NCBI RefSeq assembly: GCF_003065425.1
Contig: NZ_CP026949.1
Location: 1,612,001-1,676,000 of the forward strand
Reading direction: 5' to 3'
Origin: Mycetocola zhujimingii
GTDB taxonomy: Bacteria > Actinomycetota > Actinomycetes > Actinomycetales > Microbacteriaceae
DNA: 64,000 nt
Both the position numbers and the translations under genes were made by a program. The first letter of the stretch is position 1. Every line of letters starts with the position of its first letter. The notes under the pieces are model-generated. The model was not told the DNA's origin, searched no databases, and saw nothing but the letters and a program-made list of their open reading frames with translations. Shown in pieces: positions 7,223 to 13,115 of this stretch.

Positions 7223-9304
7223 CTAAACGTCGATGCGGTCGCGGTTGAGCCGGTCAGAACTGTCGATGATGAACTCCTTGCGTGGCGCAACATCGTTGCC
7301 CATCAGCAGCTCGAACACCTGCGCGGCCTGCTCGGCGTCAGGAACCTGCACCCGGCGAAGCGTCCGGTGGCGTCGGTCCATCGTCGTGGTGGCCAGCTGG
7401 TCAGCATCCATCTCGCCGAGGCCCTTGTAGCGCTGAATCGGCTCGAGGTAGCGCTTGTTCGTCTTCTTAAGGTTCGCGAGCACGGCGTGCAGCTCCTGCT
7501 CGGAGTACGTGTAGATCGTGTCGTTCGGCTTTGAGCCGGGGTTGACGACGATCACCCTGTGGAGCGGCGGCACGGCGGCGAATACCCGTCCCTCGGCAAT
7601 CATGGGTCGCATGTACCGGAAGAACAGGGTGAGCAGCAGCGTACGGATGTGCGCACCGTCGACGTCGGCGTCGCTCATGATGATGACCTTGCCGTAGCGC
7701 GCGGCGGAGATGTCGAAGCTGCGGCCGGAGCCCGCTCCGATCACCTGGATGATCGAGGCACACTCGCTGTTCGACAGCATGTCGGACACGGATGCCTTCT
7801 GCACGTTGAGAATCTTTCCCCGGATCGGGAGGAGAGCCTGGTACTCGCTGTCTCGCGCGTTCTTTGCCGTGCCGAGCGCCGAGTCGCCCTCAACGATCAG
7901 CAACTCGCTGTTCGCCACGTCGTTCGACCGGCAGTCGACGAGCTTCGCCGGGAGCGTCGAGCTCTCGAGGGCATTTTTGCGCCTCTGGGTCTCCTTGTGC
8001 GCACGGGCGGAGATCCGCGACTTCATCTCGGAGACGACCTTGTCGAGCACGAGTGCGGTCTGTGCCTTGTCGTCGCGCTTAGGTGAGGAGAATCGTTCCT
8101 TCAGAGCCTTGGTCACAACGGCGGACACGATGTTACGTGCTGCCGGGGTGCCGAGGACCTCTTTGGTCTGGCCCTCGAACTGCGGCTCGGGCAGGCGCAC
8201 GGTCAGCACCGCCGTGAGGCCCGCAAGCACATCGTCCTTTTCGAGCTTGTCGTTGCCGACCTTGAGCCTGCGGGAGTTGAGTTCAACCTGCTGGCGCAGG
8301 AACTTGAGCAGTCCCTGGTCGAACCCGAGCTGGTGGGAACCACCCTTGGGGGTCGCGATGATGTTGACAAAGCTCTTGGTGACGGTGTCGTACCCGGTAC
8401 CCCAGCGCAGGGCGATATCGACTTCACAGGTGCGCTCGAGTTCGGTCGGCACCATGGCGCCGCTGTCATTCAGCACCGGTACCGTCTCGGTGAACGTGCC
8501 CGAGCCCTGGAGTCGCCAGACATCGGTGACCGGTGTGTCGGTGGCGAGGTGCTCGACGAACTCCGAGATGCCTCCCTCGTACTGGAACAGGTGCGAACCA
8601 GCGTCGGGTGAACGCCGGTCATCGATGGTGAGGGCGAGTCCGGGGATGAGGAACGCGGTCTGCCGGGCGCGGGCGACCAGATCGTCCATCTGGAACGCGG
8701 CCCCCTTGGTGAAGATCTGCCGGTCAGCCCAGTAGCGGACACGCGAACCTGTCACGCCCTTCTTGACCTTGCCGACCACGCGCAGTTCGCTTCCGAACTC
8801 GAACGGCGTGAACGGGGCATCCGGGCTCGGCTCGCGGCCCTTGTCGTCGAAGATCCCAGGCTCACCGCGGTGGAACGACATCGCCCATGTCTTGCCGTCA
8901 CGATCGACCTCGACGTCGAGTCGCTCGCTCAGCGCGTTGACGACAGAGGCGCCGACACCGTGGAGGCCACCGGACGCGGCGTACGACCCTGACCCGAACT
9001 TTCCACCGGCGTGAAGCTTCGTGAACACGACCTCGACACCACTCAGCCCGGTCTTCGGTTCGATGTCGACGGGGATGCCGCGGGCACGGTCGCGAACTTC
9101 GACGCTTCCGTCTTCGTGCAGCACAACATCGATGTGGTCCCCATGGCCGCCGAGCGCCTCATCGACCGAGTTGTCGATGATCTCCCAGAGACAGTGCATG
9201 AGACCGCGTGAGTCCGTGGACCCGATATACATTCCGGGACGCTTGCGCACGGCCTCGAGACCCTCGAGGACAGACAGGTGGCGGGCGGAATAGTCAGAAC
9301 TCAC
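7223..9304 (-). CDS. parE: DNA topoisomerase IV / gyrase-type subunit B
   Basis: 693 residues, typical length. GHKL ATPase domain at the N-terminus (VRKRPGMYIGSTDSRGL, IIDNSVDEALGG with the catalytic Glu/Asn, GGLHGVGASVVNALS), transducer domain, then a Toprim domain with LLIVEGDSALGTAKNARD (catalytic Glu) and the SDADVDGAHI metal motif. The protein ends shortly after RRHRTLRRVQV ... DVAPRKEFI. It pairs with the ParC encoded convergently, separated by only 120 bp; together they form the decatenase, or a second gyrase-like enzyme. ATG 9304. Confidence 0.94.
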   Translation of the reverse strand: MSSDYSARHLSVLEGLEAVRKRPGMYIGSTDSRGLMHCLWEIIDNSVDEALGGHGDHIDVVLHEDGSVEVRDRARGIPVDIEPKTGLSGVEVVFTKLHAGGKFGSGSYAASGGLHGVGASVVNALSERLDVEVDRDGKTWAMSFHRGEPGIFDDKGREPSPDAPFTPFEFGSELRVVGKVKKGVTGSRVRYWADRQIFTKGAAFQMDDLVARARQTAFLIPGLALTIDDRRSPDAGSHLFQYEGGISEFVEHLATDTPVTDVWRLQGSGTFTETVPVLNDSGAMVPTELERTCEVDIALRWGTGYDTVTKSFVNIIATPKGGSHQLGFDQGLLKFLRQQVELNSRRLKVGNDKLEKDDVLAGLTAVLTVRLPEPQFEGQTKEVLGTPAARNIVSAVVTKALKERFSSPKRDDKAQTALVLDKVVSEMKSRISARAHKETQRRKNALESSTLPAKLVDCRSNDVANSELLIVEGDSALGTAKNARDSEYQALLPIRGKILNVQKASVSDMLSNSECASIIQVIGAGSGRSFDISAARYGKVIIMSDADVDGAHIRTLLLTLFFRYMRPMIAEGRVFAAVPPLHRVIVVNPGSKPNDTIYTYSEQELHAVLANLKKTNKRYLEPIQRYKGLGEMDADQLATTTMDRRHRTLRRVQVPDAEQAAQVFELLMGNDVAPRKEFIIDSSDRLNRDRIDV

Positions 9305-9483: not shown

Positions 9484-9729
9484 ATGTCAGAGGGAGAAAA
9501 CGGTACGGTCGGAAGAGAGACCGGCGCCGTTGACACGCTTGAGCCAAAGCTGACGGCGGCTGACCGCTGCGACAGCTGCGGTGCCCAGGCCTACATCCGT
9601 GTTGTCGTCAAGAGCGGCGAACTGCTGTTCTGCGCACACCACGGCAAGAAGTACCAGGAAAAGCTCAGTGCGATCGCACACAGCTGGCACGACGAGTCTT
9701 CGAGGCTTCTCGAAGACCAGCGCGCCTGA
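9484..9729 (+). CDS. DUF7455 small protein (Cys-pair protein near sigA)
   Basis: 81 residues, with a near-perfect ribosome-binding site (AGGAGGAG, 5 bases before ATG 9484). After ~25 variable residues the conserved core reads LTAADRCDSCGAQAYIRVV, LLFCAHHGKKYQEKL. The CxxC and the later C-x-H-H give a likely mononuclear Zn site. In actinobacteria this family sits next to the principal sigma factor gene, as here (convergent, with murT/gatD between). No function is established as far as I know. Followed by a strong bidirectional terminator. Confidence 0.85.
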   Translation: MSEGENGTVGRETGAVDTLEPKLTAADRCDSCGAQAYIRVVVKSGELLFCAHHGKKYQEKLSAIAHSWHDESSRLLEDQRA

Positions 9730-9818: not shown

Positions 9819-10559
9819 TCAGTTCCTGGGCTTCTGCACACCCCCGGGCAGCTTATTGATGAGGATGGATCTCGCCAGCTCGACCGTCTTGTCGAGAGCG
9901 ACGTGCTCGTCGTTCTTCACGTAATCCTCGCCGGCCCGTGACGCTGCCAGCGCGATCAGGTGATCAGCCAGCGCGGGGTTCAGGACCAGTGCCGGGCCGT
10001 GGAGGTGCGTGCCGTAGCTGTTGAAGACGACGGCGCCATCGGTACCGTCGCCGTTCCCGACGCCGTTTCGCACACGCCCGAGTGGTTTCTGGTCAGGACG
10101 ACCGACGAAGACCGACGTGTGGTTCTCCGTTCCGACCAGCAGACCGAAGTCGCTCTCAACAGCGAACGCTTCGGTGATCGTGCGCGGCCGCGACGAGTCG
10201 ACCGAACCGGCGAACACGCCGGCCCCAGGAAGAACTTCGTCGGAACTGAACCGGACCGAACCGCTGAGGAGGTGGAAACCGGCCCCGGCGGCGAAGATCA
10301 CGACGCCGTCGGCAGACCACTCGGCGAGCCGCGGCGCAATTCGAGCGATGTCGAAGCCCAGTGAACGCTGGGCGCTCGATGTCCCCGTCCCGATGGTGAC
10401 GATGTCGGGGGTCTCCGGCAGCTCGTCACCCGGGTTGTACGCGTGTTCAGCGACGTCGAGGCCGGCGAGGCGCATCCGCCGCACCAGCGCAGTGCGGTTG
10501 CCGACGTCACCGTTCAGCGAGAGGTGGGCCGGGTAGAGTTCCAGAACCGAGATCGTCAT
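9819..10559 (-). CDS. gatD: GatD-like class I amidotransferase subunit, nucleophile Cys replaced by Gly
   Basis: 246 residues, partner of MurT (ATGA stop/start overlap). Normally GatD is the glutaminase that feeds ammonia to MurT to amidate the D-glutamate alpha-carboxyl of lipid II. The fold matches: start 'ISVLELYPAHLSLNGDVGN', 'VTIGTGTSSAQ', and the catalytic-His segment YGTHLHGPALVLNP (His187). But the nucleophile elbow, normally x-C-x-G-Y/F-Q, reads FAAGAGFHLL: Gly92 (codon GGG at 10286-10284) occupies the Cys position, and there is no cysteine anywhere in the protein. So glutamine hydrolysis by the standard mechanism should be impossible. The membership of the family is secure by operon and motifs; the inactive state is inferred from the alignment by eye. 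Confidence 0.88.
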   Translation of the reverse strand: MTISVLELYPAHLSLNGDVGNRTALVRRMRLAGLDVAEHAYNPGDELPETPDIVTIGTGTSSAQRSLGFDIARIAPRLAEWSADGVVIFAAGAGFHLLSGSVRFSSDEVLPGAGVFAGSVDSSRPRTITEAFAVESDFGLLVGTENHTSVFVGRPDQKPLGRVRNGVGNGDGTDGAVVFNSYGTHLHGPALVLNPALADHLIALAASRAGEDYVKNDEHVALDKTVELARSILINKLPGGVQKPRN

Positions 10560-11843
10560 GCTGCACCCGCTTCCAGGTCTTTGTAGCCGAGGTAGCGACG
10601 GGTCGCCATCATCTGGTCATAGTCGAGGAAGAACGTGTGGCGACCGCTCTTCGGCCGTGGGCCGTCGAGCATCCGTTGCACCGCCTTCGTGATGTCGGGT
10701 TCGATGACGCCGTAGTCCTTGCCCTCGTACGCCAGCCGAAGCGCCACGAAGGCACCCTTGGGTCCCGAGATGACGTCGACATGGTCGAGCCGGCTCAGGT
10801 CTGCGGCATAGAGCCAGGACGGGTCCTTGCTCGACTCGTCGTATGCGAACAGCACGGAGTCAGGCGTCTCCTGGAGGTAGTCCAGGTTCAGCTGGAGGCT
10901 CGCGAGGTTCTTGAGCATGAGGATTTCGATCTCAACGCCGTTGACCTGCAGGATCTCACCGCGACCGTAGACGGTCTTCGTTGTTTGCACAGCGGTGATC
11001 GCCCGGTGGATATCGAACTTGTCGCCGAGGGTCCGTGCGGCAAGGGTGAACGCCGCAGCGATGTCCACCGCGTAGTGCAGGCCGCGTGACGGCATCCGGA
11101 TGTCGTGCACAGTCCCCGCGAACGAGATCTGAGCGTCGTAACCGTCGGCACGAACGACCTCGGCAACAGCGGGACGCGTGAGCGTCGCTGCGGCGTCGGT
11201 GAAGTCACGAGCGGAGACCTGGCCGTGCGGGGCAGCGGCCTGTACCTCCGGCGTTGCGCCGAAGTAATCGACGGCGAGCCGGCCCTCGGCCTCAAGTTCG
11301 CTGCCGAGCTTGCCCAGGAAGTTGTCGTCGCGGTTGAGCACGATCGACGATCCGATTTCCGCGGCAATACCGCGGAACATCTGAGCGACCTTATCCGGCT
11401 CACCGAAGCGATAGATCTGGTCAACCAGCAGGTTGAGAATGACTGCCGTTTCAGGCTTCAGCTGCCTCGCGATGGCCGCCCCGTAACCCTCGTCGATCTC
11501 GAGGATCGCGATATCGGCATCCATGCGGCCGGTGAGGCTCGTCTCAGCGAGGATCGCCGATGCAATGCCCTGCGGCATGTTGGCGCCGGAGGGGTTCGTG
11601 AAGACGCGGAGACCGTGCTCGCGCATGATCGCGGAAAGCAGGTTTGTCGTTGTCGACTTGCCGTTCGAACCGAGGACGAACACGACCCCGTATGGCAGTT
11701 GTGAGGCGACGTCCCGCATGATGTGCGGCGCAAGCTTCTGCACCACGACGCCGGGCATCGCGCTTCCGCCTCCGCGCAGTCGCGTGACAAAGCGCGTCAC
11801 GCGACCGGCGGCAATGGGAAGGACGTAGTGCAGACCTGTCGGT

Positions 11844-11860
<17 letters not shown>
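10556..11860 (-). CDS. murT: MurT-like Mur ligase without the zinc ribbon
   Basis: 434 residues from GTG 11860, which overlaps the 3' end of sigA by 17 bases (TTG 11851 is an alternative). Mur-ligase central domain with the P-loop [10 protein letters not shown] (residues 64-73), 'ILEIDEGYG' and '[15 protein letters not shown]', then a C-terminal DUF1727 domain ([19 protein letters not shown]). Canonical MurT carries a Cys4 zinc ribbon inserted in the central domain; here the corresponding part after [10 protein letters not shown] contains no cysteine, and the whole protein has none. ATP-dependent activation of a carboxyl is expected to survive. Translationally coupled to gatD. See finding on the pair. 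Confidence 0.88.

Positions 11861-13115
<1,255 letters not shown>

Follow-up and report, generated by a model that had tools for sequence, protein, structure and literature searches.

The ordinary MurT/GatD pair turns a glutamate of the cell wall into glutamine; before this amidation, MurT activates the α-carboxyl group of D-Glu. The bridge of group B walls runs from the D-Glu of one stem to the D-Ala of another. In the open-access literature, we found no paper naming the enzyme that starts this cross-bridge (subscription journals were outside the search). The walls of some Microbacteriaceae are of type B and contain D-Orn or Dab, as stated in the available parts of two reports (PMC10757982, PMC4156110).

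In S. aureus, the change of GatD Cys94 to Gly abolishes the use of glutamine; the complex of MurT and GatD C94G uses NH3 at pH 8.5 and, within the excerpt of that report, none of the donors tested at pH 7.5 (PMC3266927). GatD C94S is dead and MurT D349N is severely impaired, according to part of another study (PMC6113224). For the S. pneumoniae proteins, excerpts of PMC6085368 describe GatD Tyr30 as placed like the ammonia-channel plug residue of another amidotransferase, MurT Arg135 as flanking an opening that faces GatD, and MurT Asn85 as the counterpart of residues binding the acceptor carboxylate. According to the same excerpts, S. pneumoniae tolerates the Y30A plug mutation of GatD in vivo. 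Therefore, a missing plug is weak evidence on its own and need not end amidation.

The gene pair in the window

We analyzed a 64,000-nt stretch of the Mycetocola zhujimingii genome, which is called the window here. A gatD-like gene (9819..10559, reverse strand) encodes 246 amino acid residues, and its product scores 48.3 bits with GATase_3 (cut-off 27). The adjoining murT-like gene (10556..11851, reverse strand) starts with TTG and encodes a protein of the Mur ligase fold, which scores 42.3 bits with Mur_ligase_M (cut-off 24) and 20.3 bits with MurT_C, below the Pfam cut-off of 25. The start of gatD and the stop of murT share an ATGA overlap; thus, the coupling described in the sequence-only reading is borne out by the gene coordinates. 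Directly upstream of murT is a gene that we take from its likeness to be sigA (11844..13115, reverse strand), the end of which overlaps the TTG start of murT by 8 nt. On the other side, beyond a small ORF on the strand opposite to gatD and murT (9484-9729), is presumably gyrB or parE (7223..9304, reverse strand). These two genes are the edges of the slot that holds the pair.

The scores of the window proteins in the NCBIfam families of isoglutaminyl synthase were 68.3 of 450 and 53.4 of 400 for GatD, and 108 of 800 and 104.4 of 800 for MurT, with cut-offs that were set on Firmicutes-type members and may not suit actinobacterial pairs. The predicted structure of GatD (pLDDT 96.2) matches S. aureus GatD with a TM value of 0.85. 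The predicted structure of MurT (pLDDT 92.0) superposes poorly on whole MurT crystals (TM 0.47-0.62), and the domain orientation in the model is perhaps the cause.

Both proteins contain no cysteine. When the window GatD was aligned with solved GatD proteins, Gly92 (codon GGG, 10284..10286, reverse strand) was found at the position of the nucleophile Cys, and no other Cys occupied this position. His187 in the LHGP motif is kept (codon 9999..10001, reverse strand). All of these features had been read correctly from the sequence. By alignment, Asn16 (codon 10512..10514, reverse strand) stands where Cys-bearing pairs have the tyrosine plug of GatD, and Val143 of MurT (codon 11423..11425, reverse strand) stands where they have the gate arginine, which was placed by the S. 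pneumoniae numbering (Arg135). MurT keeps its P-loop (11654..11671, reverse strand) and Asp343, the triad Asp equivalent to S. aureus D349 (codon 10823..10825, reverse strand). The P-loop had been described as perfect; it is indeed kept, but its sequence is GSNGKS and not the canonical GTNGKT. From the residue test and from the S. aureus mutants, as given in the excerpts cited above, the window GatD is predicted to lack glutaminase activity, and a GatD without this activity is still able to support MurT.

The sequence-only reading also pointed to the loss of the zinc ribbon of MurT. The absence is real. However, it is not specific to this pair, as CxxC pairs are missing from most actinobacterial MurT proteins of the same order that accompany a Cys-bearing GatD. 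Furthermore, the ribbon is mostly kept in a second type of pair (clade Z, see below) although this type is Cys-less. We therefore rejected the ribbon loss as a sign of a new function.

A second, canonical murT/gatD set, which the sequence-only reading had named as a possible objection, was not found in the M. zhujimingii genome: the MurT_C search gave one match, and the GATase_3 search gave four including the window gatD; among the other three (L003, L004 and L005), the one that was read, L003, has a different Cys/His motif. In this genome, a ligase that we take to be murE-like (G000:C1:945799, L383) lies outside the dcw cluster (L384), which otherwise has genes presumed from their likeness to be murF, murD and murC.

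Distribution and ancestry of the Cys-less pairs

In the following, a Cys pair is a murT/gatD pair whose GatD has the nucleophile Cys, clade M is the Cys-less clade of the window and clade Z is the second Cys-less type. The window GatD matches in 108 of 149 Microbacteriaceae genomes. A broader MurT alignment matches 122 of them at E ≤ 1e-20, and the remaining 27 have no MurT at this threshold. GatD was read in 120 genomes (two MurT-matching genomes, G035 and G141, were left out): 92 have clade M only, three combine clade M with a Cys pair, 11 have clade Z only and 14 have a Cys pair only. The Cys-less pair is thus present in 106 of the 120 genomes, and the family survey proposed in the sequence-only reading shows a widespread and old trait. 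When the genomes, sorted by family and not by wall type, were counted for a Cys-less pair or a replacement gene in the slot, 106 + 20 of the 149 had one. Four named relatives (Okibacterium sp. HSC-33S16, Mycetocola zhadangensis, Mycetocola miduiensis and Microbacterium sp. STN6) all have Gly at the nucleophile position; a contig scan with one protein gave five loci only.

In other families, the search of the order gave Cys in 27 of 27 loci among the matches listed (the best 30 loci, three of which belong to Microbacteriaceae), and the four further order loci fetched later all have Cys. GatD is present in 48 of 120 genomes from the family of genome G198; 24 new loci were read in addition to six earlier ones, and no Cys-less pair was found, all 24 new loci having Cys. 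Micrococcus luteus bears glycine on D-Glu. In another class, the genera g213 and g276 have Cys-less pairs related to clade Z, and other members of g213 have Cys pairs. Altogether, the loci yield 217 distinct pairs, of which 118 are Cys-less and 99 have the Cys.

One Cys-less pair, that of genome G005 (L387:14566-16634), is AT-rich: the GC content of the surrounding 4.7 kb is 41.5%, as compared with 55-58% at the pairs of its genus mates. Genes like ruvC and yebC adjoin it. Because of the low GC content and these neighbors, a recent transfer of the G005 pair is likely.

The nucleophile Cys is replaced in all 97 clade-M loci read (G in 71, A in 17, S in four, N in three and T in two), and the catalytic His is retained in 65 of them. 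The Tyr plug of GatD is present in 78/78 Cys pairs, 0/73 clade-M pairs and 1/18 clade-Z pairs; for the gate Arg of MurT, the corresponding values are 78/78, 0/73 and 14/18. On the ligase side, the equivalents of acceptor Asn85, hinge Arg304 and Asp136 are present in all 169 MurT proteins, the Mg-binding Glu in all 73 of clade M, and the middle domain is conserved. The GSNGKS form of the P-loop, as compared with the canonical GTNGKT, is found in most of the Cys-less clade. Asn322 (codon 10886..10888 in the window, reverse strand) is invariant in clade M (73/73) and variable in the sister clade. These counts support a joint loss of nucleophile, plug and gate in clade M, with the ligase half kept. 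The retention of the gate Arg in clade Z speaks for two different routes of glutaminase loss. The triad Asp of MurT is present in 73/73 of clade M and lost in 18/18 of clade Z; its retention in clade M suggests a role in MurT itself.

On a quick maximum-likelihood tree of 169 MurT proteins (91 Cys-less and 78 Cys), two changes of Cys state are required. The sister of clade M (73 rows, SH-aLRT 100) is the Cys clade without the ribbon, which comes from ordinary actinobacteria (48 rows). Clade Z, with 18 rows and an SH-aLRT of 98, is placed apart. Because the tree is midpoint-rooted and contains several long rows, the direction of the change of Cys state is only inferred. Clade M has two main branches, one of 43 rows (mostly DE..DPSW round the triad Asp) and one of 30 rows (mostly DVRDPSY), which may use different amino acids. 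In a wider scan, racemase-like ORFs were observed beside clade-M pairs of the 43-row branch only.

The dN/dS values of six comparisons for each gene, rough because dS is near saturation, were 0.06-0.39 for GatD and 0.04-0.17 for MurT. Both genes are under purifying selection, as had been supposed from the sequence. Because 97 of 97 clade-M loci lack the Cys while both genes are under purifying selection, the absence of Cys is not a matter of chance. GatD has 11 columns conserved at 93% or more in clade M as compared with 67 in the sister Cys clade, and MurT has 57 as compared with 113. Relative to the sister clade, eight newly fixed residues were found in MurT of clade M and none in GatD. Dividing GatD by MurT distances gives 1.42 for clade M, as compared with 0.96 for Cys pairs and 1.01 for clade Z.

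The slot between sigA and gyrB

What is new here is that the pair occupies a slot of variable content between sigA and gyrB. sigA is upstream on the same strand in 100 of the 118 distinct Cys-less pairs, and in 96 of these at most 56 nt separate it from the first murT codon matched. In the 99 Cys pairs, 45 of which had more than 700 nt upstream to inspect, sigA was upstream of none. Eight type III (clade Z) pairs of Microbacteriaceae occupy the same slot.

Most of the genomes without MurT have other genes at this place. An F420-ligase-like gene (PF01996) stands there in 20 of the 27 (L307-L319, L321-L324, L334, L335 and L352): it follows sigA immediately in 19 genomes and is separated from it by one gene in G018. 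Two of the proteins were tested and scored 47.9 and 29.6 bits with PF01996 (cut-off 25). The gene is absent behind sigA in G017, G047, G108 and G110, which were read to gyrB, and in the stretches read in G045 (1500 nt), G057 (981 nt) and G040 (186 nt), the last two genomes being barely testable. Three genomes that have the canonical pair only were inspected and have no such gene behind sigA. In two Microbacteriaceae genomes, an F420-ligase-like gene also lies upstream of a type IV murT, and in another class one lies downstream of a type III gatD. The F420-ligase-like protein is a possible wall ligase. The comparison of the protein with solved CofE structures (E about 0.1) was too weak to use. 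We mostly rejected the possibility that MurT-less genomes use an additional Mur ligase as a substitute: of 19 genomes searched, 16 have five Mur_ligase_M matches and three have six.

ATP-grasp genes are present in 13 of the 19 MurT-less regions read towards gyrB. PF14397 was found in the three ATP-grasp proteins tested, in one of them below the cut-off; a single weak match of an ATP-grasp protein was disregarded. A gene that we take to be MurJ-like (L338:2629-4215) lies between the F420-ligase-like and ATP-grasp genes of one MurT-less slot. Two of the 19 MurT-less slots contain an EctB-type diaminobutyrate transaminase gene adjoining the F420-ligase-like gene (L343:5405-6670 and L352:1945-3264); the products score 603 and 601.8 bits with TIGR02407 (cut-off 552.2).

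Racemase-fold genes were found in 8 of 19 MurT-less slots and 6 of 18 clade-M slots. The slot of the window itself has neither a racemase nor a transaminase gene, and the same holds for its relatives L368-L370. Racemase-fold genes were compared in 15 slots, and in 14 of these they are arranged as a tandem pair (L120, L337, L338, L341-L343, L345, L354 and L357-L362). The first type of tandem gene keeps the VSYG tyrosine motif, and its PLP lysine is R, G or S or no lysine motif is recognizable. In its partner, the lysine motif is kept and the tyrosine motif is missing. In the fifteenth slot (L344), the first gene has no tyrosine motif; the stand-alone racemase of M. zhujimingii has both motifs. 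In alanine racemase, the two bases of one active site come from different subunits. Because the losses in the tandem genes are complementary, we predict by analogy that they encode an obligate heterodimer, which possibly acts on diamino acids.

Ornithine racemase was rejected as a general partner, since MurT/GatD adjoins only one of the 30 Orr loci read. This unique case is in G553, a genome of another class (L380:8004-11224), where a Cys-less murT-gatD pair with a type IV gatD precedes an ornithine-racemase-like gene by 3 nt (NF040742, 423.3 bits; cut-off 480).

Proposed function and comparison with known systems

Because the activation by MurT is kept, the ammonia supply is lost and the slot contains ligase-like and diamino-acid genes, we propose that the pair is probably an amino-acid ligase. 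A bridge bond on D-Glu requires activation of the D-Glu α-carboxyl group, and thus the step of MurT that precedes amidation fits. MurT would use ATP to form an acyl phosphate at the D-Glu α-carboxyl group of the wall precursor, as in ordinary MurT/GatD. This intermediate would then be attacked not by ammonia but by the amino group of an amino acid, either glycine or a diamino acid (for example D-Orn, D-Dab or Lys), and the amino acid placed on D-Glu would start the group B bridge. GatD would no longer hydrolyze glutamine and would be kept as a scaffold for MurT. We infer the reaction, the acceptor and the scaffold role. The acceptor is probably shared with the glutamine-dependent amidotransferases. 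Judged by residue tests, the pair is not itself a member of these enzymes, though it is descended from them. The recruitment to the bridge proposed in the sequence-only reading gains partial support from the glutaminase loss, the kept ligase half and slot contents of the predicted kind; its zinc-ribbon argument falls.

Several observations count against an amino-acid ligase. Seven MurT-less genomes have no F420-ligase-like gene, and 14 of 120 genomes have the canonical pair only. His187 and the triad Asp of MurT are kept in the window, and its own slot is without racemase and transaminase genes. Because 27 of 149 genomes are without MurT and 14 of 120 are canonical-only, the Cys-less pair is not the only way in which this family makes its wall. 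For the slot as a whole, we give an even chance to a group B bridge locus with interchangeable D-Glu ligases (MurT/GatD types that became glutaminase-dead independently, or an F420-ligase-like protein with an ATP-grasp protein), some of them accompanied by a diaminobutyrate transaminase and a heterodimeric racemase in which each subunit would supply one base.

MurT might instead amidate D-Glu with free ammonia while the dead GatD serves as a scaffold, as the S. aureus complex with GatD C94G does at pH 8.5 (PMC3266927). Because amidated D-Glu is reported among Clavibacter muropeptides in the accessible part of PMC9603630, amidation does occur in Microbacteriaceae. We nevertheless consider an ammonia-dependent amidase unlikely: the S. 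aureus complex, in the excerpt available, uses no tested donor at pH 7.5, the residues of the ammonia path are also lost, and the racemase, transaminase and other ligase-like genes of the slot are left unexplained. The pair could also be a wall amide ligase for another bond, for example at the second bridge residue or at an acceptor other than the D-Glu α-carboxyl group. Only homology and Asn85 point to the acceptor, and the ATP-grasp genes indicate that the slot may encode two or more ligation steps; however, with Asn85 invariant (169/169) and the middle domain of MurT conserved, another bond seems quite improbable. A structural or regulatory remnant without a catalytic role is very improbable, because the P-loop, the Glu and Asp of the ATP site and the hinge and acceptor residues of MurT are kept and dN/dS is low for both genes, although GatD has lost most of its conserved columns (11 versus 67).

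If the pair is an amino-acid ligase, it would show clearly how an enzyme complex can retain an inactive half as a scaffold, and a single assay could address a long-standing question of wall chemistry. The automatic names "lipid II isoglutaminyl synthase" and "glutamine amidotransferase" would then mislead for most Microbacteriaceae.

The window pair shares with the MurT/GatD isoglutaminyl synthases (S. aureus 6gs2, S. pneumoniae 6fqb and S. pyogenes 9sq9) the GatD fold (TM 0.85), the murT-gatD order with overlap, the ATP site, the acceptor Asn, the hinge Arg and the triad Asp. In contrast to them, it possesses neither the nucleophile Cys nor the tyrosine plug nor the gate arginine, has a GSNGKS P-loop and scores far below the family cut-offs. 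MurC to MurF belong to the same ligase superfamily as MurT, and structures of MurF and MurC are among the matches of the MurT model. Their attacking group is an amino acid, the chemistry proposed here for the window pair. However, MurT has no counterpart of their N-terminal domain, has GatD as a partner and acts on a side carboxyl group of the finished stem. CofE (F420-0:gamma-glutamyl ligase, PF01996) represents the family of the slot gene in 20 of the 27 MurT-less genomes, but it is unrelated to MurT and the slot protein is far below the CofE equivalog (30.3 of 180.65 bits). The archaeal MurT-like proteins, as described in part of PMC11915815, are MurT relatives without a glutaminase partner. 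In contrast, the window pair keeps the gatD gene, and the catalytic site alone is gone.
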